A stretch of DNA of 64,000 nt, from assembly GCF_004022215.1 (NCBI RefSeq), contig NZ_SAUZ01000011.1:62001-126000 (forward strand), read 5' to 3'. Shown here piece by piece: positions 35,275 through 57,265 of the stretch (positions within the stretch are counted from its first letter, which is position 1; each line of letters begins with the position of its first letter). Origin of the DNA: Paenirhodobacter populi (GTDB taxonomy: Bacteria > Pseudomonadota > Alphaproteobacteria > Rhodobacterales > Rhodobacteraceae). The notes beneath the pieces are model-generated. The model was not told where the DNA came from, made no database searches, and worked only from the letters and a program-made list of their open reading frames with translations. The position numbers and the translations under genes were made by a program.

Positions 35275-35601
35275 TCGCCGAGGGGGCCTTCGGGCCCCTT
35301 CCGCTGCGGGCCATCCCGCCCGCAAACCGCACCAAGGTCCAGAATCCCGATCGCATGGCATGCGGATAGGGCGCAAGGGGGCGCTGCCCCCTCGGGCCGC
35401 TGGCCCTCACCCCCGGGATATTTAAGGAAAGATGAATGGAAGACAATCCGGTCGGGTGACTTTGAAAAAGCAAGGCCGACCGATTGGGGAATGCCGTTTC
35501 TTCGGATCCATGGTTGCGCAATTCCGGGCGTCAGTAACTGACCTGAAGTCAGCCCAAAGTATTCCCTGAGGCAGCGCGACGCCTCACCCGGATTGCAGAA
35601 C
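35275..35601. other. Convergent intergenic region pepF / ETC subunit
   Basis: 327 bases. It holds repeat copy 3 and no gene. Confidence 0.6.
35371..35440 (+). repeat. Dispersed intergenic repeat, copy 3 of 6
   Basis: GCGCAAGGGGGC-GCT-GCCCCCT, then GGGCC-GCT-GGCCC, then CACCCCCGGGATATTTAAGGAAAGATGAATGG. It lies between convergent genes. Confidence 0.85.
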
Positions 35602-36033: not shown

Positions 36034-36058
36034 GCCCGTCAGTTCGGATTGTCCATCC
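36034..36058 (+). repeat. attL: left 25-bp direct repeat of the element
   Basis: GCCCGTCAGTTCGGATTGTC plus CATCC, identical to 45843-45867. It contains the last six codons and stop of the beta-helix gene (minus strand) that ends at attR. A partial tandem copy (GTCAGTTCGG) lies 13 bp to its left. Confidence 0.9.
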
Positions 36059-36175
36059 AAAACAAAAACTGGCGAAAACATTGGCATAAGTCACAAAAAG
36101 TATCGCGACAAAAAGGGAACGGCGGGTGAACATGATACCGCCATCCGAAAGCAGAAAAACGCTCTTTCCAGCTTC

Positions 36176-36547
36176 ATGAAACCCGAGCACAAGCGCATGT
36201 CGCGCATGCTCGGCTATACGCTGACGCTTGGCACCCCCGATGCCTGGTCCGATTTCCGTTTCGTCGCGGTAGCCCGGATGACCAAAGCCGAGCGGGCGAT
36301 GCTGGCCTGTTCGGCGCTCACCTCGCTCGATGCTGACACCGCGGCGATGACCGCCGCCGCCGCCATTGGCGCGACCGGCAGCCCCTTGCCCGCGTTCCTC
36401 GGCGGCATGGACGACGCCCGGTCGTGGGCGTCTTGGGCCTCGCGCAATGAGCTGAAGGCCTATGCGCTGGCCGCGTTCGAGGCGATGACGCCCAAGGATC
36501 AGGCGGCGTTCTTCCATCACATCAGCAATATCGAGGTGGCCGCATGA
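36176..36547 (+). CDS. Element protein of unknown function (first late gene)
   Basis: About 123 aa from ATG 36176 (MKPEHKRMSRMLGYTLTLGT). It is mostly helical and Ala-rich in the C-half. I do not recognise a family. Its stop overlaps the connector ATG by 4 nt, so it belongs to the head-gene transcript. It could be a scaffold, a small-terminase substitute or an assembly factor; this is a guess from position. The start is uncertain, since the ribosome site is weak. Confidence 0.6.
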   Translation: MKPEHKRMSRMLGYTLTLGTPDAWSDFRFVAVARMTKAERAMLACSALTSLDADTAAMTAAAAIGATGSPLPAFLGGMDDARSWASWASRNELKAYALAAFEAMTPKDQAAFFHHISNIEVAA

Positions 36548-36834
36548 ACGTTTCCGCCCTTCTTCCTGCTGCGAAGTTCCATGCGCGCATCGACTTCGCC
36601 GATGATGACGCCGACCTGCTGCTGATGCTGGCGGCGGCGGCTGGCGATGTCGCCCACGCGGCGGAATATACGCTACCCGAGGATGCGGGCGATCTGCCCG
36701 ATGACCTCAAGCTGGCGATCCTCGATCAGGCGGCGATGCTGTTCGATGCCCGCGGCGGCAGCACTGAGCGACCCGTGGGCCTGTCCCTCGCCGCGTCCCG
36801 TATCGTCGCGCGATATCGCGGGGTGGCGATATGA
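36544..36834 (+). CDS. Phage head-tail connector protein (gp6-like)
   Basis: 96 aa, helical: MNVSALLPAAKFHARIDFADDDADLLLMLAAAAGDVAHAA, seen here as segments KFHARIDFADDDADLLLML and LKLAILDQAAMLFDARGG. This matches the HK97 gp6-like connector fold that forms a ring under the portal. It overlaps both neighbours by 4 nt. A connector makes sense for a capsid meant to accept a tail. Confidence 0.75.
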   Translation: MNVSALLPAAKFHARIDFADDDADLLLMLAAAAGDVAHAAEYTLPEDAGDLPDDLKLAILDQAAMLFDARGGSTERPVGLSLAASRIVARYRGVAI

Positions 36835-37067
36835 CCTCGCTGGAACTGGACGAAATGCTGACCCTGCGCTGGCCCGGTGTGGTGCGCCGGGTGATGGGCG
36901 ACCTCGACGCGAATGACTTCGTGAGGGGCTTCGTGCGCTCGATCGCGAAGCACGGCAAGCGCCCGGACTGGCAACCGACCGCCAAGCAAGAGGCGATCAT
37001 GCGTCGCCTGCTGACCGAATACAGCGGCCCGCAGGATCCCGAGTTCAATCCGATCGAGGGGGACTGA
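36831..37067 (+). CDS. Small element protein, unknown function
   Basis: 78 aa (MTSLELDEMLTLRWPGVVRR to PEFNPIEGD). Predicted helical with charged ends and a KQEAIMRRLLTEY segment. I cannot place it in a family; given its place before terL, a small-terminase-like or DNA-binding role is conceivable. It overlaps the connector gene by 4 nt. A hairpin follows 12 nt after its stop. Confidence 0.6.
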   Translation: MTSLELDEMLTLRWPGVVRRVMGDLDANDFVRGFVRSIAKHGKRPDWQPTAKQEAIMRRLLTEYSGPQDPEFNPIEGD

Positions 37068-37079
37068 GGAAAGAAGAAA

Positions 37080-37101
37080 GCCCACCGTTGGCGCGGTGGG
37101 C
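37080..37101. terminator. Hairpin after the 36831 gene
   Basis: GCCCACC (37080-37086) pairs with GGTGGGC (37095-37101), loop GTTGGCGC. AAAGAAGAAA precedes it on the + strand, so a U-rich tract follows only on the - strand. It could be a bidirectional or minus-strand terminator, or a processing or pausing site in the late transcript. Confidence 0.5.
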
Positions 37102-37312
37102 CGATGTGCGCGGGACGGTTCAGACGGTGGCCGCTCACATTGAAGGAAGCATACCACGGGGTGGGGTCAGATGCAAAGGGCAGTCCGAAAGACCGAAGCC
37201 CGACCCCCCGCACAGCGTTCGAGTGCGGAAAGTAGCGGTCAATTCTCTGGCGAAGGACGCGCGCACAGAGAGGCCCTAAGCGGCGGCCCGGCTCCGGCCA
37301 GCAAGATCGCGG

Positions 37313-37364
37313 TGGGCATAGGGACAGCCACGGCCAAGCGCTGTGGGCTGTCGTCCTATGCCCA
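37313..37364. other. Long hairpin upstream of terL (candidate packaging site or RNA)
   Basis: TGGGCATAGG (37313-37322) pairs with CCTATGCCCA (37355-37364), and GACAGCC (37323-37329) with GGCTGTC (37346-37352). A GT bulge (37353-37354) separates the two stems, and the loop is 16 nt. With 17 pairs it is the strongest inverted repeat in the element, and it lies 58 nt before the terminase start. Role unknown: cos/pac recognition, a structured RNA, or control of terminase translation. Confidence 0.55.
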
Positions 37365-37421
37365 TCACAACAACCCTCACCATCCAGCAGGACGGTGGAA
37401 TTTAGAGAGGAAGGCAAAACG

Positions 37422-39071
37422 ATGATCGACCACGCCGCAGCCGCGGGCGACCTGTTCGGGGAAACTGGTCCCAATGCCCCCAAAGCTGCGGGACAGAGGA
37501 CCGGGGGCGGGAGTGTTCCTTTCTCTCTCCTGAAAAAAATCCGGGGAAAATCGCAGGCGATCCGCGCAATCCAGTTTTTGGGCCTTTTGTGCGTTCCCGA
37601 GGGGAAAAAGGCCGGAAAACCGCTGAAACTGGCCGATTTCCAGCGAAAATTCGTGAAAGGCGCTCTCGCGAAGAAAGTCATGGTCGGGGTGCTGTCGATC
37701 GGGCGCGGCAATGCGAAAACCGCACTCTCGGCAGGTCTGGCGCTGGCTGAACTGGTGGGGGCGCTTGAAGAACAGCCGCAACCCAAGCGGGAAATCATCC
37801 TCGCAGCCCGAAACCGCGATCAGGCCCGCACCGCATTCAACTTCCTTCTCGGCTACATCCAAGGACTGCCCGATGCGGATCAGGGCCAGTTCATCGTCCG
37901 GCGCGGCTCCAAGCTGGAAGTGGAATTCGCTGGCAACGGCGGTGGTCTGGCGCGGGTGATCGCGGCTGATGGCAAATCCATTCTCGGCGGCGCTCCGACG
38001 CTGGCGATCATGGACGAACGGGCGGCATGGGAACGCGAGAAGGGCGACAACCTCGAAAACGCGATCCTCTCCGGCCTCGGCAAGCGTGACGGGCGGGCGC
38101 TGATCATCTCGACCTCGGCCCCGGACGATGCCAACACCTTCTCCCGCTGGCTCGATGATCCGCCGCCTAGCACCTATGTTCAGGAGCATCGCCCGGCGTT
38201 CGGCCTGCCCGCCGATGATCTGGACAGCCTACTCATTGCCAATCCCGGCGCGACCGAGGGAATCGGCGCGACCCCGGAGTGGCTGGTGTCGCAGGCGCAG
38301 CGCGCAATCGCCCGTGGCGGCTCGGCCCTGTCCAGCTTCCGCAACCTGAACCGCAACGAGCGGGTTTCGACCGAGGATCGTTCGGTGCTGGTCACGGTTG
38401 ACGAATGGATGAGCGCCGAAGTCTCGCCCGACGATCTGCCCGAGCGCGAAGGCCCCTGCATCCTCGGCGTGGACCTCGGCGGCTCTCGCAGCATGTCGGC
38501 GGCGGCGTTCTACTGGCCGGAAACCGGGCGGCTGGAAGCCCTCGGCACTTTCCCGGCAACCCCTTCCCTCGCGGATCGCGGCGCGTCCGATGGCGTGTCC
38601 GACCGATATTGCCAGATGCAGGAACGCGGCGAGCTGTCGGTTCTGGGCGAGGCGACCGTGCCGCCCGGCCCGTGGCTGGCGCAGATCGTCCAGCACCTGG
38701 ACGGCATCACCCCGGATTGCATCGTCGGTGACCGCTTTCGCCATGCCGAATTCACCGAGGCGATGCAGGCGGCGGGGCTGGCCCGTGTCCCGTTCATCTG
38801 GCGCGGCTTCGGCTGGAAAGACGGCAGCGAGGACATTGAACGCTTCCGCCGCGGCCTGTTCGACGGCGAGGTGAAGGTGGCCCCGTCCATGCTTCTGCGC
38901 TTCGCCTTCTCGGACGCGATCACGCTGGTTGATCCGGCAGGCAACCACAAGCTGGCGAAGGCGCGCAGCCTCGGGCGGATCGACGCGGCGGCGGCAACTG
39001 TGCTGGCGGTGGCGCAGGGCGCCCGGATGAAAGCGGCCCCGGCCCGGAAAGCGAGGGCGCTATGGCTGTGA
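37422..39071 (+). CDS. Phage terminase large subunit
   Basis: 549 aa, the DNA-packaging ATPase/nuclease. The ATPase Walker A variant is SIGRGNAKTALSAGLALAEL (near residues 89-108) and Walker B is LAIMDERAAW near 192-201. The C-terminal RNase-H-like nuclease begins at CILGVDLGGSRSMSAAAF, with another acidic cluster in DCIVGDRFRHAEF. The ATG at 37422 has a GAGGAAGG ribosome site. Its end overlaps the HNH gene by 10 nt. No small terminase is recognised beside it. Confidence 0.9.
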   Translation: MIDHAAAAGDLFGETGPNAPKAAGQRTGGGSVPFSLLKKIRGKSQAIRAIQFLGLLCVPEGKKAGKPLKLADFQRKFVKGALAKKVMVGVLSIGRGNAKTALSAGLALAELVGALEEQPQPKREIILAARNRDQARTAFNFLLGYIQGLPDADQGQFIVRRGSKLEVEFAGNGGGLARVIAADGKSILGGAPTLAIMDERAAWEREKGDNLENAILSGLGKRDGRALIISTSAPDDANTFSRWLDDPPPSTYVQEHRPAFGLPADDLDSLLIANPGATEGIGATPEWLVSQAQRAIARGGSALSSFRNLNRNERVSTEDRSVLVTVDEWMSAEVSPDDLPEREGPCILGVDLGGSRSMSAAAFYWPETGRLEALGTFPATPSLADRGASDGVSDRYCQMQERGELSVLGEATVPPGPWLAQIVQHLDGITPDCIVGDRFRHAEFTEAMQAAGLARVPFIWRGFGWKDGSEDIERFRRGLFDGEVKVAPSMLLRFAFSDAITLVDPAGNHKLAKARSLGRIDAAAATVLAVAQGARMKAAPARKARALWL

Positions 39072-39400
39072 GCCGGAAGGAACACGCGCGCCATTCCAAG
39101 CATGTCACCTCGACCCGGCGCTGGCAGGTGCTGCGGCAACAGATCCTCGAACGTGACGGCTGGAAATGCCGGTGCTGCGGCGATCGGCGGCGGCTGGAAA
39201 TCGACCACATCAAATCCGTGCGGACGCACCCGGAATTGTCCTTCGACCCGCGCAATCTGCAAGCCCTCTGCGGTGCCTGCCACACGCGCAAGACCCGGAT
39301 CGAGTGCGGCCACAAAGAGAAATCCCCCGAGCGCAAAGCTTGGGCCGATGCCGTTGCCGATCTGGCAGCGGAAACTGCAACCCGAGCTGAAAAGGAATGA
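39062..39400 (+). CDS. HNH endonuclease
   Basis: 112 aa. The HNH core is RWQVLRQQILERDGWKCRCC, then RRLEIDHIKSVRTHPELSFD, then NLQALCGACHTRKTRIE: two CxxC pairs for zinc (CRCC, CGAC) and the His of EIDHI. HNH nucleases next to TerL work with terminase in cos-type packaging in HK97-like phages. This supports cos packaging here. It overlaps terL (10 nt) and the capsid gene (4 nt). Confidence 0.9.
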   Translation: MAVSRKEHARHSKHVTSTRRWQVLRQQILERDGWKCRCCGDRRRLEIDHIKSVRTHPELSFDPRNLQALCGACHTRKTRIECGHKEKSPERKAWADAVADLAAETATRAEKE

Positions 39401-40656
39401 CCATGCTCGATAGTGTCAAGATTGCCAAACGGCAGTCCGAAATCCGCCAGGCCATTGCGCCGCTGGCAGGCAAGACGAACCCGACCGAGGACGAAGTGCG
39501 CCAGATGGGCGACCTCGACCGGGAATACTCGACGAATGAAACCCGCTATCGTGCGGCGCTCATTGCCGAGGATACCGAACGGCGCGAGGCCGGGGCTGAT
39601 CTGGAAACCCGCTCGGGCAAGGAATGGGCGGATCTGATGGGCCGCTTCGAGGTGCGCCAGATCGTTCATGCGCTCGACACCGGCAAGATGCTCTCGGGGC
39701 AGACGGCGGAAATCGTGACCGAGTTGCGCAACCGCGGATCGTTTCAGGGGATGCCGGTGCCGCTGGCCGCTCTGGAACAGCGTGCGGGCGAAACCACTTC
39801 GGGCGGCATCACCTATCCCGGCCAGCTCTATGCCACGGTCGCGCGGCTGTTCCCCGCTTCTGTCGCGGCGAAGATGGGCGCGGCGACGATCAACGTCGAT
39901 GTGGGTGATGTGTGGATCCCCGTCACCTCGTCCAGCGTCACGGCGGGATGGGCTGGCGAGGCGGACAATGTTCCGGGGCCGGTGCCCTACACCGAGGAAA
40001 CCCGGACCCTGAAACCGGATCACAACCTCGGCGTGCATATGCGCATCACCCGCAACGCCCTGAAATACTCCGGGCAGACGCTGGAACAGTCGATCCGGTC
40101 GGACATGCTCGGCACGATCGGGGCCGAACTCGACAAGGCGGTGTTCCTCGGCACGGGCGTGGATGGGCAACCGCTCGGCGTCATCACCGGGGCGGCGGAT
40201 TACGGCATCACCGAACAGGCGGTGAGCGCTGCGGCCAGTTGGTCGGCGTTCCGCGCCGCAGTCGTGGCCTTCATGACCGGCAACGCGGCCGCCGCGGCTT
40301 CGGACGTGCTGGCGCTGATCCGGCCCGAGGTCTGGTCCAAGCTGGACGATACGCTCATCGCCGGCACCGCCGTTTCGGAATGGGACCGCCTGACCGGCAA
40401 CATTCCGGCGGGCAACATCGCCATGTCGGCAAACGCGCTGGCGGCTCCGGCGGCTTCGGCGACCACGGCGCTGCTGACCACGGGGGCGGGCGGCATCCCC
40501 CCGATCACGGTGGGCATCTGGGGCGCGATCGACGTGATCCGTGATCCGTTCTCGGACGCACAGTCGGGTGGCCTGCGGCTCACGGCGCTGACCACGGTTG
40601 ACGTGGCGGTGGCCCGCCCGGCGCAGCTGCGCGTCCTGACCGGGGTGCAGATCTGA
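39397..40656 (+). CDS. HK97-type major capsid protein
   Basis: 419 aa. The first ~100 residues are the charged coiled-coil delta/scaffold segment (SVKIAKRQSEIRQAIAPL and ERREAGADLETRSGKEW). The HK97 capsid fold follows: TSGGITYPGQLYATVARLFP, WAGEADNVPGPVPYTEETRT, AVFLGTGVDGQPLGVITGAA, and the P-domain/A-loop to LRVLTGVQI. The protease encoded next would remove the delta part. It overlaps both neighbours. The order capsid-protease-portal is the reverse of the usual portal-protease-capsid. Confidence 0.92.
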   Translation: MTMLDSVKIAKRQSEIRQAIAPLAGKTNPTEDEVRQMGDLDREYSTNETRYRAALIAEDTERREAGADLETRSGKEWADLMGRFEVRQIVHALDTGKMLSGQTAEIVTELRNRGSFQGMPVPLAALEQRAGETTSGGITYPGQLYATVARLFPASVAAKMGAATINVDVGDVWIPVTSSSVTAGWAGEADNVPGPVPYTEETRTLKPDHNLGVHMRITRNALKYSGQTLEQSIRSDMLGTIGAELDKAVFLGTGVDGQPLGVITGAADYGITEQAVSAAASWSAFRAAVVAFMTGNAAAAASDVLALIRPEVWSKLDDTLIAGTAVSEWDRLTGNIPAGNIAMSANALAAPAASATTALLTTGAGGIPPITVGIWGAIDVIRDPFSDAQSGGLRLTALTTVDVAVARPAQLRVLTGVQI

Positions 40657-41207
40657 TGCTCTGGGGCGATCACACGGGCAGCCTTGAGTTGCGGTCTGAT
40701 GGCGGGGCAACCCGCCTGACGGCCCGTTTCCCCTATGGCCGGGAAACTGAAATCGCGGCGGGGCGGCGCGAGGTGATTGCCCCCCGCGCCTTCCGCACCA
40801 GGATCGAGGCAGGTGACGAAATCCACCTGCTGTCCGGTCACGACTACGAAAAGCCGCTGGCCTCGCGCTCGGCCGGCACCCTGACACTGACCGATTCCGA
40901 TGATGCACTGACGCTGGAGGCGCGGATCGAGGGCGCCACCACATGGGCGCGGGACTTCCTCTCGGCCCATGCGGCGGGGCTGATCCGGGGACTTTCGCCG
41001 GGCTTCCGTGTTCCGAGTGGCGGTGAGCGGATCGAACGCCGGGGCGCTGACATCCTGCGCACCATCGCTTCGGCCGAGCTGTTCGAGCTGTCGGCCGTCA
41101 CCCGGCCGGCCTATTCCGAAGCCCAGATCGAGGCCCGCAACTGGCAGCCCGTGGGCGAGGTGGCGGAACGTGTCGTGGCGCATCACCTGAACCGCTGGAG
41201 GCTCTGA
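40656..41207 (+). CDS. HK97-type prohead protease
   Basis: 183 aa, a U35-family serine protease that matures the capsid. It has the strand region AAGRREVIAPRAFRTRI, the catalytic His in LLSGHDYEKPLASR, the catalytic Ser in IRGLSPGFRV, and SAELFELSAVTRPAY near the end, all typical. The start codon overlaps the capsid stop, and the portal start overlaps its own stop. Confidence 0.92.
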   Translation: MLWGDHTGSLELRSDGGATRLTARFPYGRETEIAAGRREVIAPRAFRTRIEAGDEIHLLSGHDYEKPLASRSAGTLTLTDSDDALTLEARIEGATTWARDFLSAHAAGLIRGLSPGFRVPSGGERIERRGADILRTIASAELFELSAVTRPAYSEAQIEARNWQPVGEVAERVVAHHLNRWRL

Positions 41208-42274
41208 TGTTCGGATGGTTCAAACGGCAGGTTGTCCCCCAGGTTGAAACCCGTTCGGCATCCTCGACCGGCTACACGGCGCAAATCCTTGCGGCGCGAC
41301 AGTCCTATATCTCGGGCGTTTCGGGCCTCGGGGAGCTGACGGCGGCGGTGCAATCGTCGGTCAGCCTGTGGGAAAGCGGCCTGAGCCTCGCGGATGTGAA
41401 GGGCACGGATCTGCTGTCCCGGAGGATGCTGGCACTCACCGCACGCTCTCTCGCGCTGCGGGGCGAAAGCGTCTGGCTGATCCGCGACCGGCTGGTGCCT
41501 TGCTCGGACTGGGATCTGACCACGCGCGACGGCGAGCCCCGGGCCTATCGGGTTTCCATCCCCGAAGCGGGCGGGCCGCGCTCCGACACCGTGCTGGCGG
41601 GCGAGGTGCTGCACTTCCGCATCGGCTCGGACGTGGTGGCCCCTTGGACCGGAACGGCACCGCTGCGGCGGGCGCGGCTTTCGGCGGATCTGCTGGAACA
41701 GCTGGAAACTGCGCTCCGCGACGTGTTCCGGGATGCCCCGATCGGCAGCCAGATCGTGCCGATGCCGGAAGGCTCGGCCGAGGATATGGCATCGCTGCGC
41801 TCTGCCTTTGTCGGCAAACGTGGCGCGACGATGGTTGTGGAAGGCGTAGCGCAGGCTGTCGGAGCCGGGATGCACCCGCAGCTTGGCAAGGCCCCGGATC
41901 AGCTTTCGCCGGATCTGTCCGATACGCTGGCGGACAAGATGCTGACCGAGGCCAAGGGCGCGATCTACGGCACCTTTGGTATCCTGCCCGGGCTGTTCAA
42001 CCCGGCGACCACCGGGCCGCTGGTTCGCGAGGCGCAGCGTCATCTTGCCCAGATCGTATTGCAGCCGATCGCCAATATCATGGCCGAGGAAGCGGCCGAG
42101 AAGCTCGGCGCAGGCGTTCAGGTCGACGTGGTGCGCCCGATGCAGGCTTTCGACGCCGGCGGCAAGGCCCGCGCGCTGGCAACGATGATCGGCGCTCTGG
42201 CGCAGGCCAAGGAAGCCGGGATCGACGGCCCTACCCTACAGGACGCGCTGTCATTCATCGACTGGCAGGACTGA
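41207..42274 (+). CDS. HK97-family phage portal protein
   Basis: 355 aa, the ring at the capsid vertex through which DNA enters. Matches to the family: FGWFKRQ start, LALRGESVWLIRD, VLAGEVLHFRIGSD, APLRRARLSADLLEQLETAL, FGILPGLFNP and REAQRHLAQIVLQPIANIMA. It is shorter than many portals (about 380-450 aa), but both ends look natural. It is the last gene of the rightward head module. Confidence 0.9.
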   Translation: MFGWFKRQVVPQVETRSASSTGYTAQILAARQSYISGVSGLGELTAAVQSSVSLWESGLSLADVKGTDLLSRRMLALTARSLALRGESVWLIRDRLVPCSDWDLTTRDGEPRAYRVSIPEAGGPRSDTVLAGEVLHFRIGSDVVAPWTGTAPLRRARLSADLLEQLETALRDVFRDAPIGSQIVPMPEGSAEDMASLRSAFVGKRGATMVVEGVAQAVGAGMHPQLGKAPDQLSPDLSDTLADKMLTEAKGAIYGTFGILPGLFNPATTGPLVREAQRHLAQIVLQPIANIMAEEAAEKLGAGVQVDVVRPMQAFDAGGKARALATMIGALAQAKEAGIDGPTLQDALSFIDWQD

Positions 42275-42429
42275 GTTTAGGCGGGGTGCGCCTGCGGCTT
42301 ATCCACGCGAAGCACCTGGGATTAGACGGTGAGTGCCCGGCGTCATACCCGAAAACCCCGTCAAGGCGCGGCCCTTCTGAACTTCCGGGGGCGCGGCGCA
42401 GATCGTCACGGTTATAGAGCCGGGGGCGA

Positions 42430-42639
42430 TCATCTGGCCTCGTCATGCTTCGCGCTGGCGGGGCCTTCATCGGCGAGATGTTTCCGCAATTCCAAAAGCT
42501 CCTGCGCCACTGCTTGCAGCACCGGTATCAATGATCTGTGTAAGTCGTTAGATTCCTCACGCAGTTCGTTCTGCTTTGCCAGCTTCTTTGCGATATCTTC
42601 CAACTCAGTGGCGATATCCTGCGCAATTCCATCATCCAT
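42430..42639 (-). CDS. Small coiled-coil element protein
   Basis: 69 aa, highly charged and helical with a heptad pattern (IATELEDIAKKLAKQNELRE, then LIPVLQAVAQELLELRKHLA). GAAAGGA lies about 10 nt before the ATG. No family recognised. It converges with the portal gene and lies downstream of XRE on the same strand, possibly with its own promoter in the AT-rich region to its right. Confidence 0.6.
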   Translation of the reverse strand: MDDGIAQDIATELEDIAKKLAKQNELREESNDLHRSLIPVLQAVAQELLELRKHLADEGPASAKHDEAR

Positions 42640-42834
42640 TATCGATGGTCCTTTCGTGGTTATCCACAGGTTCCGTCAGTTTTCCTGTTCCGTTCCGTGT
42701 GCTTTATTTTCTTATATTTTCTTTTCTTATCTTATAGTTGGTAACTGTTACCAATGTATGTGGAACAGTTATATTCTGTTCTGGTAACAGTTTCGGTAAG
42801 CGGTCCCACGATGGATAAGAAGCTTAGGCCCACG
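42640..42834. promoter_or_regulatory. AT-rich regulatory region with TGGTAAC repeats
   Basis: The only strongly AT-rich stretch of the element. It holds TTGGTAA-CTG-TTACCAA (42738-42754), GAACAG-N7-CTGTTC (42763-42781) and CTGGTAACAG (42781-42790). TGGTAAC thus occurs three times, twice direct and once inverted. These could be operators for an element regulator or an origin-like iteron cluster. Confidence 0.5.
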
Positions 42835-43083
42835 CTAAGATTTCTGCAACCTCACCCCGACGCCGCCGCCGTTCTCGGGGATGAACTCGACGCCAGCGGC
42901 TTCTAGGGTGCGGCACACAGCTTCGACGTTGTTCGCCATACCTACCGCAGGCCCCTCGCTGGCTTCCATACGTTTTAGCGTGGGCACAGAAATCCGCGCA
43001 ACTGCTGCAACTGTTGCTTGCGAGAGGCCTGCAAGAGCGCGGGCTGCGGCAAGTTGACGTCCGGTTGGGCGTTTTTCATCCAT
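42835..43083 (-). CDS. XRE-family HTH transcriptional regulator (candidate element repressor)
   Basis: 82 aa. The HTH runs over GRQLAAARALAGLSQATVAA, VARISVPTLKRMEASEG, followed by a segment like that of small XRE proteins (EAVCRTLEAAGVEFIPENGG). I start it at the ATG at 43083; a GTG at 43092 would add three residues. It faces away from the early operon, and a palindrome lies between them, as for a phage-type repressor. Regulation of its own and the early promoter is inferred. Confidence 0.82.
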   Translation of the reverse strand: MDEKRPTGRQLAAARALAGLSQATVAAVARISVPTLKRMEASEGPAVGMANNVEAVCRTLEAAGVEFIPENGGGVGVRLQKS

Positions 43084-43107
43084 AAGGATCACATTTATCC
43101 CGAGGTA

Positions 43108-43145
43108 TTGACTTTAAGCTTTTTCTGAGCCAATAGTATCATACT
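43108..43145. promoter_or_regulatory. Divergent control region, XRE / early operon
   Basis: TTGACT (43108-43113) could be a rightward -35 box, with CAATAG 17 bp later. The palindrome AGTAT-C-ATACT (43135-43145) covers the -10 zone and is a candidate XRE operator. Confidence 0.45.
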
Positions 43146-43172
43146 GAAACTTGAGATCAATGGAGTCCTGTC

Positions 43173-43364
43173 ATGCCGAACCCTGTTCCGGCAGCCGTCA
43201 CCGGCTTGCCTTCCGACCGCCTGAATGAAATCCACGACATGCTCACGCTGGCGCTGGACGCCACCGAACGCCCGACCGGCTACAGCCAGACCGAACGCGA
43301 AGCCCGCAGCTACATGCGCATCGCCCTGCGCCGGACCTGCAAGCTGATGGAGGTCCGGGCATGA
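43173..43364 (+). CDS. Small element protein 1 of early operon, unknown
   Basis: 63 aa (MPNPVPAAVTGLPSDRLNEI to RRTCKLMEVRA). GGAG lies 8-9 nt before the ATG. Helical; no family recognised. Its stop overlaps the next ATG, and it is the first gene after the XRE-controlled promoter. Confidence 0.55.
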   Translation: MPNPVPAAVTGLPSDRLNEIHDMLTLALDATERPTGYSQTEREARSYMRIALRRTCKLMEVRA

Positions 43365-43564
43365 TTGGCCGTGAAAATCACATGGACAGAATGCGGACAT
43401 GTTCCCGGCAGCTCAAAGCCGTCTTGGCGGCTCTTGATGCGGTCGTGGATGATCCTGACCGGATTGATCTTGCGTTGTGCCTCACTTCAGGCGCGCAGGA
43501 GCTGGCTCAAGAATTGAATGCCGGGTTGGATGTCGTCAATCTGCCGAAAGGTGAAGCAGCATGA
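43361..43564 (+). CDS. Small element protein 2 of early operon, unknown
   Basis: 67 aa (MIGRENHMDRMRTCSRQLKA to LPKGEAA), helical and acidic. Start and stop overlap both neighbours by 4 nt, so it is translated in the operon. No family recognised. Confidence 0.55.
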   Translation: MIGRENHMDRMRTCSRQLKAVLAALDAVVDDPDRIDLALCLTSGAQELAQELNAGLDVVNLPKGEAA

Positions 43565-43923
43565 TGCGCCGTGATCTTCTCTGTGTTGCCCCGCTCGCTC
43601 TTCTGCCCATCACCGCACCCGGGCAGGCCGATGCTACAGAAACTCCGGTCATGCGCCTCTTCCGCGCATGGCAGGCGGCAGAGGCCGAAGAATGCGCGGC
43701 ATATCGCGCGCACCCCGACACGCCGAAAGGCGACGCGATCTGTGAAGCCATGAGGAAACGCCGCACCGATATCGAAGACCGTATGATGGCCACTCCCTGT
43801 GTGACCGCCCAAGACTTCACGGCGAAGGTGGCCGCATGGACTAGCTTTGGCGTGTTTGGGCTGCCCAGTGAACGTGAGGCTCCGGGTTTCTGGGCAGAGG
43901 CGCGGGCATTAGTTTGGGCATAA
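43561..43923 (+). CDS. Small element protein 3, possible exported protein
   Basis: 120 aa. It opens MMRRDLLCVAPLALLPITAPGQADA, whose first residues (MMRRDLLCVAPLALLPITAP) look like a signal peptide with cleavage near GQADA. The rest is charged and helical with three cysteines (EECAAYRAH, AICEAMRKR, ATPCVTAQ). The frame ends at TAA 43921. No family recognised. An exported protein in a satellite's early operon is unusual; it could affect superinfection or host surface, but nothing proves this. Confidence 0.55.
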   Translation: MMRRDLLCVAPLALLPITAPGQADATETPVMRLFRAWQAAEAEECAAYRAHPDTPKGDAICEAMRKRRTDIEDRMMATPCVTAQDFTAKVAAWTSFGVFGLPSEREAPGFWAEARALVWA

Positions 43924-43927
43924 CTTC

Positions 43928-43972
43928 ATATGGTCAGTTGACAATATGCCTGACGCCGATATATGGTCAGGC
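43928..43972 (+). promoter_or_regulatory. Promoter and repeated operator of the MerR-like gene
   Basis: Perfect -35 TTGACA (43938-43943), a 16-bp spacer and TATATG -10 (43960-43965). ATATGGTCAG occurs twice as a direct repeat (43928-43937 and 43961-43970), 33 bp apart, one copy abutting the -35 and the other covering the -10. GCCTGAC/GTCAGGC (43948-43954, 43966-43972) form an inverted pair. This suggests autoregulation by the downstream HTH protein. Confidence 0.65.
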
Positions 43973-43989
43973 AACCATAGGGGGTTATC

Positions 43990-44538
43990 ATGAATATCTT
44001 TCACGCCAAGTTCTCCACGAGCCAAATTACCGAGGCCACCGGAGTGAACAACGACACGCTGCAAAATTGGCTAAAGCGTCAGCTGATTATCGGCCAAAAG
44101 GATATTGTAGGTGGGGGATCGCAAGGTCGCCACCGTCAGTACAGCTTTTTCAACCTGATCGAAATTGCCGCCGCCAAGGCTCTGGTGGATGCTGGCATGG
44201 GGGATCTTAAGTCGGCGTTTAAAGCCGCTAACATGTTTGCGCACACCGGGGGCGGCCCCCTTGGCGGCACCCCCGAACGCGTGCCCGGCTGCCCTTTCAA
44301 TAAGTGCCCCGGAATCACACTTTTGGTCGCTGGACCGGGCTGGTCCGATGAAGTTTTCATGGCGCCCAATGACTCGGCGCTTAAGCTCTACACCGACCTC
44401 GTATTCAAAGCGCCCGCTGGACGCGAAGGCTGCATTTTCGTGAATATGAGCGACGTATTCGACAGAGTCGTAGTTCGCGTGGGCTATCGCCCCGTCGAGG
44501 TTCTCGGGATCGCTTATCCGAAGGGGGCCACCGCCTGA
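43990..44538 (+). CDS. MerR-like HTH regulator with unknown C-terminal domain
   Basis: 182 aa. The N-terminus is a MerR/excisionase-like winged helix (FSTSQITEATGVNNDTLQNW, QGRHRQYSFFNLIEIAAAKA). Residues about 75-182 form a separate domain with CPFNKCPG and mixed strands (EVFMAPNDSALKLYTDLVF, RVGYRPVEVLGIAYP). GGGGG precedes the ATG. It has its own promoter with repeated operators, and its stop overlaps the next ATG. Likely the switch that activates the element's genes or directs excision. Confidence 0.7.
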   Translation: MNIFHAKFSTSQITEATGVNNDTLQNWLKRQLIIGQKDIVGGGSQGRHRQYSFFNLIEIAAAKALVDAGMGDLKSAFKAANMFAHTGGGPLGGTPERVPGCPFNKCPGITLLVAGPGWSDEVFMAPNDSALKLYTDLVFKAPAGREGCIFVNMSDVFDRVVVRVGYRPVEVLGIAYPKGATA

Positions 44539-44747
44539 TGAGCCGCGTGCCCCCCTTCTATGTGAACGAGAAGAACGCCGCCGCCCTGCTGGATATGGGC
44601 GTCGCGGAGTTCCGTTCGCATGTGGAGGCGGGACACCTTCCGCGTGGCCGGGAAATCGCCCCCGGTGCGATTCGGTGGAGTGCCGAGGCCCTGCGCATGA
44701 TCGGGAACGGTGACGCGGTGGAAGGGATGGGAGGCGTGCAATGGTGA
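44538..44747 (+). CDS. Small excisionase/AlpA-like HTH protein
   Basis: 69 aa (MSRVPPFYVNEKNAAALLDM). The helix-turn-helix pattern VNEKNAAALLDMGVAEFRSH, then AGHLPRGREIAPGAIRWSAE, resembles short excisionase/AlpA-type winged helices that work beside integrases. It overlaps the MerR-like gene and the integrase gene, so it is probably the recombination directionality factor. Confidence 0.65.
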   Translation: MSRVPPFYVNEKNAAALLDMGVAEFRSHVEAGHLPRGREIAPGAIRWSAEALRMIGNGDAVEGMGGVQW

Positions 44748-45739
44748 AAAAATACTTGTGGAGGCACCCCTCGGGACGCATCTATTTCCGCAAGAAGGGC
44801 ATGAAGCTGATCCGCATCGATGCCCACGAGGGCACGGAAGCGTTCGATCAGCAGTATTGGGAAATCCTGACCGGAAAGCGGTTCGAGGCGAAAACCTCAT
44901 GGGCCGCGCTGATGGATGACTACCGGACCTCGGATCGCTGGACGAGCCTCAAGCCCCGCACGCGCTCGGACTACGACAGGGTGATGGACTACCTGCGCGA
45001 AAAGATCGGCACCCGGGACGTGAAGGCGCTGAGCCGCTCCGATGTGATCGCGGCGCAGAAGGCGAACGCGCACCGCACCCGGTTTGCGAACTACATCCCC
45101 CAGATGCTCGTGGTTCTCTGCGAACACGCGATTGACCTGGGGTGGATCCAGAACAATCCGGCGAAAGGTGTCCGCGCGCTCAAGACGCCCACTGAGCGGA
45201 AGAAAGAACATCTGCCTTGGCCCGATTGGGCGGTGGACAAGTTCCGGGCCGAGGCCAAGCCGCTTCCCCGTCTGATCTTCGAGATCGGCGTGGGCAGTGT
45301 CCAGCGCCCCGGCGACTGGGTGGGCTTCCGGTGGGGTGACTATGACGGCGATTCCCTCACCCTGCGTCAGAACAAGACCGACAAGCCGCTGGTGCTGCCC
45401 TGCACTGCGAACCTCAAGGCCGCGTTGGACTGCGCCAAGGCGTCGCTCGGCGCCGTGCCGATCGCCGCCCGTTCCATTCTCATCACGCGGGACGGGAACC
45501 CCATGAACTACAACGGCATGTCCCACCTGATGCTTGCCGAGCGTCAGCGCCTCGGGCTTGAGGCCTATGACCTGCATGCCCTGCGCTATCGTGGCGTGAT
45601 GGAATTGGCATGGGCAGGCTGCGATGACGACGAGATTGCCGCCTACTCCGGCCACGCCACGAAAAAGATGGTCATCAAGTATGCAGGCGAAGCCCGCCAG
45701 ATCGTGCGTGCGCGTCAGGCGCGGGAGAAACGCCAGTGA
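44741..45739 (+). CDS. Tyrosine recombinase (element integrase)
   Basis: 332 aa. An N-terminal arm-type domain (KYLWRHPSGRIYFRKKG), a SAM-like core-binding domain (WTSLKPRTRSDYDRVMDYLR) and the catalytic domain: Arg in GSVQRPGDWVGFRW, HALRY (His-x-x-Arg), SGHATKKMVIKYAG with the nucleophile Tyr. GGGAGG precedes the ATG. It ends 104 bp before attR and reads toward it, the usual place for an integrase. Confidence 0.92.
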   Translation: MVKKYLWRHPSGRIYFRKKGMKLIRIDAHEGTEAFDQQYWEILTGKRFEAKTSWAALMDDYRTSDRWTSLKPRTRSDYDRVMDYLREKIGTRDVKALSRSDVIAAQKANAHRTRFANYIPQMLVVLCEHAIDLGWIQNNPAKGVRALKTPTERKKEHLPWPDWAVDKFRAEAKPLPRLIFEIGVGSVQRPGDWVGFRWGDYDGDSLTLRQNKTDKPLVLPCTANLKAALDCAKASLGAVPIAARSILITRDGNPMNYNGMSHLMLAERQRLGLEAYDLHALRYRGVMELAWAGCDDDEIAAYSGHATKKMVIKYAGEARQIVRARQAREKRQ

Positions 45740-45842
45740 ACAGAACAGGCACAGAACAGAAACGTGATACCCTTGGTGATACCCTTGGCGAAGCGTGCTC
45801 CGCCAAGGGACTGAATTATATGAATATTGACCGGGAAAAGAT

Positions 45843-45867
45843 GCCCGTCAGTTCGGATTGTCCATCC
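45843..45867 (+). repeat. attR: right 25-bp direct repeat of the element
   Basis: Identical to 36034-36058. On the minus strand it encodes the end of the beta-helix protein (RMDNPN-stop; the stop is at 45848-45850). The element therefore entered at the gene's 3' end without breaking it. Confidence 0.92.
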
Positions 45868-48139
45868 GCAGCACCATCTGCACCCGCCCGATCGCCGGCT
45901 CCGGCCAGTTCAGCGTCACGTTTCGCCGGGCGGTGCCCTGCTCGACCTGAACGAAGGGCATTCCCGTCACGCGCGCGCCCGCGCCATTGGTGATCGGCCC
46001 CTCGCTGACCACGCTTTCGACATTCCGCGCCCAGCCGGCGAAGGGCAGATAGGCCCCCGCCGCAACGGTCCAGACCGACTGCGCCGTGGCCTGGTTCACC
46101 TCGACCATCACCGGATTCGCGGTCAGCTGGTTCACCCCGTTGAACGCGTTCCCCGAGAACCGCACATTGCGCATCCTCTCGTTGTCGAGCGTGGCGAAGG
46201 TCGTATCCACCGCCTCGATCCGGTCGATGGTGCAGTCGACGGTGCGGAACACGTTGCCGGACACGTTCAGACCATGGATGAAATGCCCCGCGCCATAAGG
46301 CTTCACCGAGAACCAGGTGAACCAGGACGTGGTGCGGATACAGACGAAGGTGTTGCCCGTCACCGTCAGCCCGCCAAAGGAATATTCCGTCCCGAACTTC
46401 GGATCCGGCGCATATTCGTTGGTCCATTCGATGGTCGAATTGTCGATGTAATTGCCCGTCACCGCCGATTGCACGTTCGGCTGGCAGAAGACCAGCCCCG
46501 GCAGCCGCGGCCCCAGCGTCGTGTCATCCCCCTGGAACCAGTGCGAACCGACAATCAGATGCCCCGTCCCGGCCAGCAGCATCGTATGGCGGAACCGCAC
46601 AAAGCGGCTTTCGCGGATCTTCACGTCATTCGCATTGACGTTGAGCGCGATGGACACCCGCTCGGGCGCCGCCACCGTCATTTCATTCGACAGGAACTGG
46701 CAGCGGTCCACCAGCAGATCCTGACAGCCGCGCCCGATCGAGGTGATGCCCTTGTCCTTCGGCCGCACCACGTAGCAATCGCGGATCTGGAACATCTCGC
46801 CCGAGGGCGGCAGCATGATGCAGCTTGCCGCGCCATTGCACAGGAATTCGACGTCATCGATGTTGAACCGGTCGAGCTTCGCCAGCCCGGAAAAATCCAG
46901 CACATATTTGTGCCGGGTGAAGGTCAGCACCTGCGTCCCCGAGCCACCGTAGAACGGCTGCGACAGCGTGAGCGAGCCCGCCCCCACATCCACCGCCAGC
47001 ACATAGACCTCGCGCCCGACGCCGGTGCCGGTCACCCGCGCGCCGACGGGGATATTGGCGATATTCGCCACATTGGTCAGCACCTTGGGGTTCAGCGTCG
47101 AATAGGTCGCCTGCGAGGTCACGACCGTGTCGTTCCACGCCGTCCCCTCGATGATGTTGAACTGACCGTTGCGCAGCACCCTCCGGTTCGAGAAAGAGGT
47201 GATGTCGGGTGCCAGCGCCTTGACGTCGATCGGCTCGGTCACCTCGATGCGCCGCCCCTTGAGGTCGAGCGTGTTGTGGTCGGTATAGGCGAACAGCGCC
47301 TGCAGGGCCTTCTTGAAGCCCAGAAGCTCGTTGCCGAAGGCCGCGGCATAGGTCGGGAAATCGTAGCTCCCCTGCAAGATCAGGCGCGCCGCGACCGGCA
47401 TTGCCACCGTTCCCGCAAACCGCACCGGGGCGGTGATCGTCAGGCTGCTGCCGATATAGTATTTTCCCGCCGGCACCACGATCGAGCGCCCGTTCGCGGC
47501 CGCATCCGCCGCGGCGAAGGCCGCGCGGTCATTGGTCACGCCGTCGCCCTTTGCGCCATAGTCGCGCACGTCGACCCAATCCATCATCGTGCGCAGGAAG
47601 ACGTCGGTCACATCCTCGATCTGGATATCGTCGATCCGCACGACGCCGCCGTTCAGCCCGATCAGGTCGAGCCCGAAATGGCCATAGGCCGGCGCGGTGC
47701 CCCAGACCATGTCCACCCCGCCCCGCGCACCGGTGCCGACGATCGCCGAAACGGTGGTGACCCGGCCGTAATCCGACAGGGTGACGGTGCTGCCGACCTC
47801 GGTCAGCCCGCCGACATGCGCGCCCGCGGCATTGACCGCATATCCCGCGATCCGCACATTCGGACGGTTGCCGCTCATCGCCTTGAGCCGCGCGGTGATC
47901 CGCAGATAGCAGCCGGGCAGGATCGGCGTCTGCCCCATGTAGCGCAGCTTTTCCGTGCCGAGCGTCTTCACCAGTTCAAGACAGGAACCGAAATCGGGAT
48001 CCGCCGCCACGACCGCCGCCGTGCCGGAGCCAAGATAGGTCGCCGATCCCGGCAGACCGTCCTCCCGCGACCATACGCCCAGACCCGCCTCGAATGCGGG
48101 TGGCATCAGTGCCAGCCCGTCGGTAACCGCCATGTTCAT
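45848..48139 (-). CDS. Right-handed beta-helix protein (pectate-lyase-like fold)
   Basis: 763 aa, starting at ATG 48139 after AGGGGAA. The segment VDVRDYGAKGDGVTNDRAAF near residues 210-230 is the entry motif of the Pectate_lyase_3 / GH28-related fold, and the later part is rich in strand-turn repeats (VRIDDIQIED, NFNVSGNVF-like, VRFSGNAFNGVNQ). An N-terminal jelly-roll-like region precedes it. No classical signal peptide is seen. It may be a phage-tail-spike-like or surface polysaccharide enzyme; the substrate is unknown. Its 3' end is the attachment site of the element. Confidence 0.8.
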   Translation of the reverse strand: MNMAVTDGLALMPPAFEAGLGVWSREDGLPGSATYLGSGTAAVVAADPDFGSCLELVKTLGTEKLRYMGQTPILPGCYLRITARLKAMSGNRPNVRIAGYAVNAAGAHVGGLTEVGSTVTLSDYGRVTTVSAIVGTGARGGVDMVWGTAPAYGHFGLDLIGLNGGVVRIDDIQIEDVTDVFLRTMMDWVDVRDYGAKGDGVTNDRAAFAAADAAANGRSIVVPAGKYYIGSSLTITAPVRFAGTVAMPVAARLILQGSYDFPTYAAAFGNELLGFKKALQALFAYTDHNTLDLKGRRIEVTEPIDVKALAPDITSFSNRRVLRNGQFNIIEGTAWNDTVVTSQATYSTLNPKVLTNVANIANIPVGARVTGTGVGREVYVLAVDVGAGSLTLSQPFYGGSGTQVLTFTRHKYVLDFSGLAKLDRFNIDDVEFLCNGAASCIMLPPSGEMFQIRDCYVVRPKDKGITSIGRGCQDLLVDRCQFLSNEMTVAAPERVSIALNVNANDVKIRESRFVRFRHTMLLAGTGHLIVGSHWFQGDDTTLGPRLPGLVFCQPNVQSAVTGNYIDNSTIEWTNEYAPDPKFGTEYSFGGLTVTGNTFVCIRTTSWFTWFSVKPYGAGHFIHGLNVSGNVFRTVDCTIDRIEAVDTTFATLDNERMRNVRFSGNAFNGVNQLTANPVMVEVNQATAQSVWTVAAGAYLPFAGWARNVESVVSEGPITNGAGARVTGMPFVQVEQGTARRNVTLNWPEPAIGRVQMVLRMDNPN

Positions 48140-48264
48140 CCACGTTCCCCTTTGCGCTGCGCCTGGGCCAAACCGGACCCCGACGCCGGACCGATGCCCG
48201 GATCGCGCAAAAGGTGCGTCGAAAGCGTTGAGAAGCACTGAGACGACCGAACGCCGGAAATGAC

Positions 48265-48334: not shown

Positions 48335-48398
48335 CGCGCAGGGGGCGCTGCCCCCTCGGCCGTTCCGGCCTCACCCCCGGGATATTTATGGAAACGCG
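48335..48398 (+). repeat. Dispersed intergenic repeat, copy 4 of 6
   Basis: CGCAGGGGGC-GCT-GCCCCCT, CGGCC-GTT-CCGGCC, CACCCCCGGGATATTTATGGAAACGCGA. It lies between lysK and the beta-helix gene (both -), oriented +. Confidence 0.85.
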
Positions 48399-48464: not shown

Positions 48465-50072
48465 TCAAGCGCCCGCCAATTCCCCGGTCAGCGCCCTTTC
48501 GATCAGCGCGATGCTTTCCTTCACGCCGTAAAGCGCGATGAACCCGCCGAAACGCGGCCCCTGCGACTGCCCCAGAAGCACCTCATACAGCGCCGTGAAC
48601 CAGTCGCGCAGCGGCTCGAATCCATGCTCCTTGCCGACCGCGAAGACGATGGTCTGCAAGCCCTCGGCCGGATCGTCCTCGAAGATCTCGGCCAGCGGCA
48701 GGTCGGGCAGCGCCTTCAGCCGGGCCACCAGATCCTCCATCGCCGCGCGTTCCTTGTCCGAGGGCAACCGGAACGTCCGCGTCGGCGCCACGAAATCGTT
48801 GAAATAGCGCACCGCGAAGCCCGCCGCCTGATCCAGATCCGGGTTCGCCTCCGGCGTCGCCTCGGGCGCATAGCGGCGCATGAAGCCCCAGAGCGTGTCC
48901 TTGTCCTTCGCCCCGGATACCGAGGCGAGGTTCAGCAGCATCGCGAACGGCACCACCATCGTCGATTTCGGCGGCTGGCCGCCGTGGATGTGCCAGACCG
49001 GATTGTCGATCTGCTTGTCCAGCGGCTGCGCCTCGAACGCCCGCAACTGCTGGTGATATTCGTCCACGGCCTTGGGGATCACGTCCCACCACAGCCGTTT
49101 CGCCGTCTTCGGCTTCTGATACATGAAATAACCAAGGCTCTCGGTCGCCGCATAGGTCAGCCACTCGTCGATGGTCAGCCCGTTGCCCTTGGACTTCGAG
49201 ATCTTCTCGCCCTGCTCGTCCAGGAACAGCTCATAGACGAAATGCTCGGGCGCGCGGCCCCCCAGCACCCGGCAGATCCCGTCATAGATCGGCGTGTTCG
49301 AGCTGTGATCCTTGCCATACATCTCGAAATCGACGCCAAGCGCCGCCCAACGCATGCCGAAATCCGGCTTCCATTGCAGCTTCACATGGCCGCCCGTCAC
49401 CGGCAGCGTCCATTCCCGCCCGTCCTCGTCGTCGAAGGTCACGGTGCCGGCCTTGGCATCCACATGCTTCATCGGCACATAAAGGACCCGCCCCGTTTCC
49501 GGGTGGATCGGCAGGAAGCAGGAATAGCTCTGCTGGCGTTCCTCGCGCAGCGACTTCAGCATGATCGCCATGATGTCGTCATACTTCTCGCAGCAGCGGA
49601 TCAGCCAGTCGTCGAACTTGCCCGATTTGTAATATTCCGTCGAAGAGGCGAATTCGTATTCAAACCCGAACGTGTCCAAAAACCGGCGCAGCATGGCGTT
49701 GTTATGCGCCCCGAAGCTCGGATATTCGCCGAAGGGATCGGGCACCGAGGTCAGCGGCTTCTGGATATTCGCGCGCAGCATCTCCTGCTGCGGGACATTC
49801 TCCGGCACCTTGCGCATGCCGTCCATGTCGTCCGAGAAACACAGAAGCTTCGTCGGGATGTCGGAAATGATCCCGAACGCCCGACGGATCATCGTCGTGC
49901 GCGCGACCTCGCCGAAGGTGCCGATATGCGGCAGGCCCGAGGGGCCGTAGCCCGTCTCGAACAGCACATAGCCCTTTTCCGGCGGCGCTTTTTCATACCG
50001 TTTCAGAACCCGGCGCGCTTCCTCGAAAGGCCAGGCTTTGGAGTTCATCGCAGCGTCGCGCAGGGTCGTCAT
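48465..50072 (-). CDS. lysK: Lysyl-tRNA synthetase, class I
   Basis: A 535-aa class I lysine-tRNA ligase. HIGH-type motif: [14 protein letters not shown] near residues 40-55. KMSKS-type motif: [10 protein letters not shown] near 290. Rossmann core and C-terminal helical anticodon domain follow. The ATG at 50072 has GAGAGG 7 nt upstream. Class I LysRS is the archaeal-type form that also occurs in many alphaproteobacteria, where it is the only LysRS. Confidence 0.95.
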
Positions 50073-50192
50073 GGTCACCTCTCGGGGCGCCCCATGCGCC
50101 CTCACGCGCCTCACCTATTGAACGCCCCGGCAATCGTCAATAATTCTTGGGCGAAAATCCCGGAAAGGCCCGGGTCCACGAAAGGATTGCCC

Positions 50193-52054: not shown

Positions 52055-52205
52055 GTCCGTCCCGGCCCTCGCCCAGATTCCGCGCCCGCCCGGCGCCATG
52101 GTCATCTTGCGCCTGCGGCAACCGGCCTTCAAGCCATGTCAGTCTGCGGCAGGGTGGTTAAGGATATGTTTCGGGATCAAAGCCACCGCGACGCGGGGCT
52201 GAGAG

Positions 52206-52272
52206 GGCGCAAGGGGGCCAGCCCCCTCGCCGGCGGAGCCGGCTCACCCCCGGGATATTTATGGAAAAACGA
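52206..52272 (+). repeat. Dispersed intergenic repeat, copy 5 of 6
   Basis: GCGCAAGGGGGC-CA-GCCCCCT, GCCGG-CGGA-GCCGGC, CACCCCCGGGATATTTATGGAAAAACGA. It lies between nadD and dacB, oriented opposite to both genes. Confidence 0.85.
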
Positions 52273-52308
52273 CGGCAGGAAGGCGCTCGGAATGCCGAGG
52301 CGGGGCCT

Positions 52309-52917: not shown

Positions 52918-53002
52918 GCCGGAGCCCTAGCCGATCGTTCGCGGTCTTGGAAGGTGGAATGTGATGCAGCCGCGTCTCGGCAGGCCGCCGCCGCCGGGGT
53001 GG

Positions 53003-54630: not shown

Positions 54631-54706
54631 CCCGACAATACCCTATTGGATCAATCCTCGCAGGGTACGGTTCGAGCGTTAATGAAACAGAAATCACCCC
54701 TGGAAA

Positions 54707-57256: not shown

Positions 57257-57265
57257 GCGCGCCTC

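Follow-up and report, generated by a model that had tools for sequence, protein, structure and literature searches.

Gene content and boundaries of the 9.8-kb element

In the window analyzed here (i.e., a 64,000-nt stretch of the Paenirhodobacter populi contig NZ_SAUZ01000011.1), exact 25-bp direct repeats at positions 36034 to 36058 (attL; repeat family D12) and 45843 to 45867 (attR) enclose a 9.8-kb element that carries phage head genes and an integrase gene. By our own estimate, one exact 25-mer pair within 22 kb has a chance expectation of approximately 2e-7. Gene identities were assigned using Pfam, PHROGs, and NCBIfam profile scans. On the plus strand, the element begins with genes for a conserved protein with an all-helical AlphaFold model (hyp123; 36176 to 36547), a short form of a head-tail adaptor (36544 to 36834; PF05135, 1e-6), which in the alignment lacks the middle part present in longer relatives, and a protein modeled by AlphaFold with three helices (hyp78; 36831 to 37067). 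A noncoding stretch follows, which holds a conserved structured RNA of approximately 245 nt (37146 to 37391; covariation and covariance model) just 5' of the gene for the large terminase subunit of the HK97 type (TerL; 37422 to 39071, alternative start 37395; PF03354, 1e-9; PF20441, 1e-5; phrog_9, 1e-54). The same strand then encodes an HNH endonuclease (39062 to 39400; PF01844, 2e-9), a major capsid protein of the HK97 family (MCP; 39397 to 40656, alternative start 39403; PF05065, 1.5e-14; TIGR01554, 3.6e-14), a prohead protease S78 (40656 to 41207; PF04586, 7e-23), and a portal protein (41207 to 42274; PF04860, 5.5e-9, below the Pfam cutoff; phrog_12, 2e-7).

The genes to the right of the portal gene are of a regulatory and integrative kind. 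The minus strand carries a gene for a small unknown protein with relatives in a few other elements (42430 to 42639) and a divergently read gene for an Xre-type repressor (42835 to 43092; PF13560, 9e-8). Back on the plus strand are three small unknown genes (63, 67, and 120 amino acids; 43173 to 43923; without convincing family matches), a gene for a MerR-like regulator (43990 to 44538; PF13411, 2e-4), a gene for a small AlpA/excisionase-like helix-turn-helix (HTH) protein with weak matches (44538 to 44747; phrog_66, 0.04; PF12728, 0.23), and a tyrosine integrase gene (44741 to 45739; PF00589, 3.7e-10; phrog_1, 8e-23). The AlphaFold models of hyp123 and hyp78 had no meaningful fold match in a comparison with the PDB, so that neither protein is assigned as a small terminase subunit. 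A hyp123-like gene, recognized as a relative by eye (20% identical in the alignment), adjoins a primase-like gene of the resident siphoprophage C9.

A sequence-only reading of this DNA had already noted the 25-bp repeats bounding 9.8 kb, which are real, as well as the integrase, the repressor, and the regulators, which are borne out by the three profile scans. These scans likewise agree with it that no tail, lysis, or replication gene is recognized between the repeats. Its "full capsid and packaging set" holds for the adaptor, TerL, HNH endonuclease, MCP, protease, and portal protein; the set is not full, as the scans recognized no small terminase subunit (TerS), of which a very divergent form might escape them, and no head-closure protein (stopper) in the window copy, unlike in relatives linked to siphophages. 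The structured RNA had been overlooked. PADLOC found no defense system in the element and reported generic HNH and HTH matches only.

The right repeat spans the last codons, and hence the 3' end, of a pectate-lyase-like gene (45848 to 48238, minus strand). All 18 genomes of the genus that were searched have a homologue of this gene; in 8 of the 17 besides the host, the 25-bp site can be recognized at it (5 mismatches at most). No element was found beside the gene in the five relatives whose neighboring genes were read. Outside the repeats are NDUS4 and other host-type genes. NDUS4, the left neighbor, was not found within approximately 1.5 kb around the pectate-lyase-like gene in the relatives; because the left flank is not syntenic, the empty site is established from the right side only. 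Two other features of the window are a 55-nt repeat (85% identical) that lies beyond both ends of the element (35376 to 35430 and 48340 to 48394) and a tRNA-SeC gene (16659 to 16755).

Relatives, selection, and stopper kinship

A relative of the MCP (E value, 1e-20) was detected in 42 of 394 genomes of the same family, host genome included (a few at 29 to 32% identity), and in 4 of 385 genomes of a class-level sample (i.e., the host's and three from other families, including one strong match). Among 50,697 phage records, the MCP had no match at an E value of 1e-5. The 234 relatives analyzed below consist of 42 genome loci and 192 viral contigs; L020, L214, and L327 to L333, which are distant relatives or were recruited via the tape measure, are not counted among the latter, and two scans took the best 80 of 544 and the best 80 of 486. 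All four core head genes are present in 165 of the 192 viral contigs, 111 of which also carry an integrase gene. The stored contigs (some of them stored in part) are up to 21 kb long, with a median length of 10.0 kb. Mapping the genes of the first 57 loci revealed a common order, and most genome copies are flanked by other genes on both sides.

Direct repeats of at least 17 bp frame 24 of 34 testable genome copies, versus 0 of 34 in a control with one flank inverted, and lie 9,317 to 11,276 bp apart. From this narrow spread of sizes, we suppose that the volume of the head is fixed. A tRNA finder was run on 13 of the 24 loci, picked because their repeat looked tRNA-like, and in each of the 13 a tRNA gene overlaps the repeat. 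None of 90 tested viral contigs has identical ends of at least 15 bp; two have a 20- to 21-bp repeat near both ends. L059, with a TAG within its MCP frame, looks decayed or interrupted, and a transposase-like gene pair, recognized by eye, lies inside the satellite-bearing contig L009 (4583 to 5670).

Recognized tail genes are lacking in nearly all of these relatives. Twenty-one tail proteins from the host cluster resembling a gene transfer agent (GTA), two resident prophages, and the viral contig L150 matched none of the 42 genome loci and two of the 192 viral contigs (i.e., L150 and L216; the match of L150 to itself was not counted). A family scan of 135 of the 174 noncore representatives from the first 57 loci showed no tail family among the first 25 of 95 PHROGs and the first 25 of 48 Pfam families matched.

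The element was also compared with the relative L006. Over 6.1 kb of the left half, the two are 97.3% identical, and the ratio of synonymous to replacement changes is 23/1 for the MCP, 14/7 for TerL, and 45.5/14.5 for the portal protein, from which we conclude, on these counts, that the MCP and TerL evolve under purifying selection. The right half with the integrase gene has no DNA match to L006 save 370 bp, and the two integrases are 24% identical. The combination of a near-identical head half with a mostly unrelated integrase half implies that the head cassette and the integration module recombine as units.

Links to tailed phages were sought with 96 structural genes of the siphophages Shpa, Pthi1, Rivra, and RcapNL, the host siphoprophage C9, and the host GTA-like cluster; the names of these genes were assigned from gene order and are thus presumed ones. 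Eighty-five of the 96 had no match in the 234 loci at an E value of 1e-5. The five stoppers of the siphophages and C9 matched 31, 39, 48, 48, and 48 loci (best match, 57% identity and 5e-30), so that a siphophage-type stopper is present in 48 of the 234 relatives; a second, dissimilar stopper-type protein occurs in 31. The other matching queries were four adaptors (one to six loci each), one GTA gene (in L216), and the TerL of Shpa (36 loci, weakly at 26%). A tree of 67 stoppers shows the 43 from the relatives interleaved with those of prophages (five label changes, at least two of which are forced by well-supported branches) and seven GTA stoppers in a separate clade (support, 100/99; the protein is short, and many forks are open). 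The tree omits five of the 48 satellite stoppers (identical or of odd length), L338 (a second satellite copy), and L351 (too short). On the basis of this kinship, we suggest that siphophages of this kind act as helpers. The host genome itself contains a candidate, as yet not a demonstrated helper, in the siphoprophage C9 (L098; contig C9 of host genome G000, approximately 93.5 to 113 kb), which has tail genes related as a module to those of Pthi1, a TerS gene, and a stopper related to those of the element's relatives.

A structured RNA and other head cassettes

The RNA at 37146 to 37391 is a conserved feature of part of the family. Where a gap separates neighboring hyp78 and TerL genes (39 pairs, that of the window among them), it measures 287 bp or more in every pair; since genes were called using a simple codon-usage finder, some called TerL starts may be too far downstream and these lengths partly too long. 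A blastn search with the window stretch reached 50 loci and, beyond L005 and L006, its longer matches are 67 to 94% identical over most of the length of the window stretch. In an alignment of 25 sequences, 99.2% of the cells are paired in a seven-helix structure, versus 35 to 41% with the partners slid by one to three columns, although the first figure is inflated because the structure was picked on the same alignment. Both sides have changed in 27 of 52 pairs, and the observed values were reached in none of 500 shuffles. The structure includes a pseudoknot in which hairpin loops are paired with distant strands (columns 48 to 52 with 96 to 100, 3 of 5 pairs doubly changed; columns 75 to 79 with 115 to 119, 4 of 5). 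The folding z score of the window RNA is -3.1. A coding gene was rejected as an explanation of this stretch on account of one- and two-base indels and the 27 doubly changed pairs.

With a covariance model (E value, 0.01), the RNA was found in 59 of the 234 loci (12 of 42 genome loci and 41 of 98 and 6 of 94 viral contigs). It always shares the strand of TerL and in 55 cases lies no more than 700 bp 5' of the TerL match; seven matches score below 30 bits and are possibly false. The model had no match in the four siphophages, C9, C89, the GTA-like cluster, or the 12 of 21 other stopper loci that were searched. No Rfam family overlaps the RNA in the window. The closest one, RF02932 (Betaproteobacteria-1 RNA), which does not match the window RNA, gave subthreshold matches in 4 of 20 other loci (best, 32.8 bits versus a gathering score of 49.4), three of them starting approximately 42 nt upstream of the RNA model and overlapping it in part.

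Among 167 loci in which 1.5 kb precedes TerL, the RNA is present in 48, a helicase gene in 48, and both in none (Fisher's exact test, P = 3e-9, which is confounded by kinship). The RNA is tightly associated with hyp78, which is present in 46 of the 48 loci with the RNA versus 19 of the 119 without it (likewise confounded by kinship). When the RNA/helicase label is mapped on a FastTree tree of TerL (100 rows), six changes are required, so the exclusion does not reflect one split. The alternation with the helicase favors a replication role for the RNA, and its constant place before the head operon favors a role as a leader or antiterminator. Since the RNA occupies the place of the replicative helicase of other members, it would most likely serve replication or expression in cis.

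The RNA is not confined to the head genes of the window family, as the model found it at 29 places in 25 of 295 genomes of the bacterial family. One of these is a second element of the host (contig C10 of G000, 48888 to 60591; L389, L361), which is 11.7 kb long and framed by 48-bp direct repeats. It contains hyp123, hyp78, a Nu1-type TerS, a gpA-type TerL, a lambda-type portal protein, a protease-capsid fusion, a cement protein (Pfam), and an integrase, had no match to the tail queries used, and has a weaker RNA match (44.9 bits, 163 nt). The presence of the RNA, even if weaker, together with a Nu1-type TerS makes it unlikely that the RNA replaces TerS. L400 and L401 have a lambda-type head similar to that of the second element (46-bp repeats in L401; none beyond the control in L400), and L397 carries a third cassette, with a diverged HK97-type head, an MCP distantly related to the window family, and 51-bp repeats. 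In L390, L391, L393 to L396, and L398, these head cassettes are absent and the RNA lies near integrase/HTH or ParB-like/TerS-like genes (by eye); in L390, L391, and L398, for example, it follows an integrase gene and a small HTH gene, with no recognized terminase gene nearby. Other mobile elements may thus use the RNA.

These observations lead us to a broader proposal, which we regard as tentative and rather doubtful as a whole: the satellites of Rhodobacteraceae would share one chassis (i.e., hyp123, hyp78, the pseudoknotted RNA of approximately 245 nt, and the integrase) on which tail-less heads are swapped (i.e., the HK97-type head of the window, an unrelated lambda-type head, and a diverged HK97-type head). 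The RNA would be a new class that stands in for a replication protein or for a packaging or antitermination factor or, in the boldest form of the proposal, for the replicative helicase.

A putative head-building satellite and its rivals

The anatomy of the element, its framing repeats, the uniform size and nearly tail-free gene content of its relatives, the selection on the MCP and TerL, the exchange of head cassettes, and the stopper kinship in part of the family make it probable that the element is a functional tail-less satellite that builds its own head and is tailed by a helper siphophage. The element sits at the 3' end of a host gene, where its own repressor would keep it silent, and the growth of a helper siphophage in the same cell would induce its excision. 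A small HK97-type head would be formed from its own MCP, protease, portal protein, and adaptor, and the approximately 10 kb of element DNA would be packaged by its own TerL and HNH endonuclease. The helper's stopper, which would have to serve since the window copy has none, and the helper's tail would then close the head to yield an infectious particle. The proposed action of the RNA in cis, in replication or expression of the element, is the weakest step. The sequence-only reading had also preferred a functional element to a ruin, which agrees with the dozens of relatives of approximately 10 kb and the purifying selection, and it had proposed looking for the same gene set without tails at other sites, where dozens of such relatives were indeed found.

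Several results weigh against this explanation. Besides the lack of a recognized TerS and stopper, the most serious is the contig L150, the main result left unexplained, in which a gene for a 610-amino-acid tape-measure-like protein (3123 to 4955; PF06791, 1.5e-5, under the Pfam cutoff) starts 10 bp past a portal gene of the family type. The contig stops 426 bp beyond this gene, and searches with the tape measure and MCP of L150 yielded no longer contig of the lineage; homologues of the tape measure are present in 34 of 384 genomes, on contigs other than those of the satellite copies. At least one lineage may therefore be a tailed phage, and the contig L150 may come either from the margin of such a phage or from a satellite that carries a single tail gene. 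In L216, tail-type genes lie on the opposite strand (218 to 2228) beside a shortened TerL gene, possibly through an insertion into a tail operon or as a chimeric contig. The profile of the MCP family matches a solved phage capsid (8gta, 3.7e-11), which we take to be that of a Dinoroseobacter siphophage; that of the portal family matches 9i8c (1e-4) and the RcGTA portal (4e-3). Between the window and L006, the adaptor (7 synonymous and 10 replacement changes; dN/dS, 0.52) and the HNH endonuclease (0 and 1) show no strong selection on their own. The control for stopper kinship was mixed as well. Among C9, Pthi1, Rivra, and Shpa, the MCPs are recognizable in six of six pairs (E values of 1e-56 or better), and in three of the six pairs the stopper is more similar than the MCP (e.g., C9 and Pthi1, MCP 35% and stopper 60%; conversely, C9 and Shpa, MCP 62% and stopper 49%); RcapNL matches the other siphophages in the stopper and not in the MCP. 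Stoppers therefore travel among siphophages, and the satellites would draw from the same pool.

Three other explanations were weighed. If the element were a tailed HK97-type prophage that has lost its tail module by deletion and is now decaying, L150, in which the same MCP-protease-portal block is followed by a tape measure, and copies of decayed look (e.g., L070, L075, L081, and L083) would be accounted for. Such tailed relatives had been named beforehand in the sequence-only reading as a finding that would count against a satellite, and one incomplete contig of 192, L150, touches on this point. In the window, no tail gene stands beside the head genes between the repeats, as would be expected of a tailed prophage; moreover, the same gene order and size of approximately 10 kb recur at different sites in many genera, the MCP is absent from the phage records searched, selection on the MCP and TerL is strong, and tail homologues are nearly absent from the relatives, all of which render a decaying prophage quite improbable. 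The head might instead dock on GTA tails, which most Rhodobacteraceae encode. The sole match of the adaptor-family profile in the PDB is the adaptor of RcGTA (6e-17), its best match in the host genome besides the element itself is the adaptor of the GTA-like cluster (1e-13), and the stopper profile reaches the RcGTA stopper (6e-3) behind 2kz4 (2.5e-5). The nearness of the adaptors keeps a GTA helper alive at a low probability, against which stand the separate clade of GTA stoppers and the 11 of 13 host GTA genes, stopper included, without a match in the 234 loci (the adaptor matches six loci and one tail gene matches L216). It is also conceivable that heads alone suffice, i.e., that tail-less particles package the element DNA and exit by lysis or in vesicles with no tail donor, as the window copy and many relatives are without a recognized stopper of either type. 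We consider this very improbable indeed, given that the adaptor is present and that part of the family has a siphophage-related stopper with no evident use without a tail.

Rhodobacterales are known for GTAs. With an MCP relative in approximately one-tenth of the sampled family genomes, satellites such as the one proposed here would be common agents of gene transfer in this group as well. The shared stopper points to phages that can be tested as helpers. The structured RNA is linked with mobile elements and yields sharp predictions, and because head cassettes are swapped, hypotheses on how such satellites arose can be put to the test. Head-building satellites are described as widely distributed across bacteria (PMC10690885, available part).

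Among known systems, GTAs have a full tail and neither an integrase nor a repressor; the element has an integrase and no recognized tail and differs in these respects from RcGTA, with which it shares the host family and a homologous adaptor, the RcGTA stopper lying in a separate clade. In their best matches, the stoppers of the Paracoccus phages Shpa and Pthi1, the Agrobacterium phage Rivra, and the Rhodobacter phage RcapNL reach 39 to 57% identity with stoppers in part of the family, whereas these siphophages are tailed, have genomes of 38 to 44 kb, and show no match in their MCP, portal, protease, and tail genes at an E value of 1e-5. The word "satellite" was not met in the available part of the Paracoccus virome paper. 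No element of this type in Rhodobacterales was met in the literature searched, to which the original papers on capsid-forming phage-inducible chromosomal islands (cf-PICIs) and the satellite surveys did not belong; the sequence-only reading likewise knew of none in this family of bacteria. According to the available part of their description, the Streptomyces satellites Mulch and Flayer encode a capsid, a portal protein, a terminase, and a head-tail adapter, and MulchRoom encodes an integrase and no known primase and forms particles whose tail resembles that of its helper (PMC10690885). Compared by description only, Mulch and Flayer share the head and adapter gene content with the element and, unlike it, have terminal repeats, virulent helpers, and their own TerS and scaffold protein (PMC10690885).

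The nearest likeness is to the cf-PICIs, which were reportedly described by Alqurainy et al. in 2023. An AlpA-type activator is one of their features. As far as the available parts of the sources tell, cf-PICIs encode an MCP, a protease, a portal protein, connectors, both terminase subunits, and an HNH endonuclease and take their tails from a helper (PMC10690885), three radiations of their capsids are distinguished (PMC11389934), and the capsid of an Escherichia coli cf-PICI groups structurally with that of RcGTA (PMC12846349). The element differs from them in having no recognized TerS, in its order of genes (adaptor, RNA, TerL, HNH endonuclease, MCP, protease, portal), and in its conserved structured RNA. 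The gene content had been called the hallmark of cf-PICIs, which holds as a likeness; membership is not claimed, because a TerS was sought and not found. Judged by gene content, the element, with its integrase, direct repeats, MCP, protease, portal protein, connector (adaptor), TerL, and HNH endonuclease and no tail gene, probably works like a cf-PICI.

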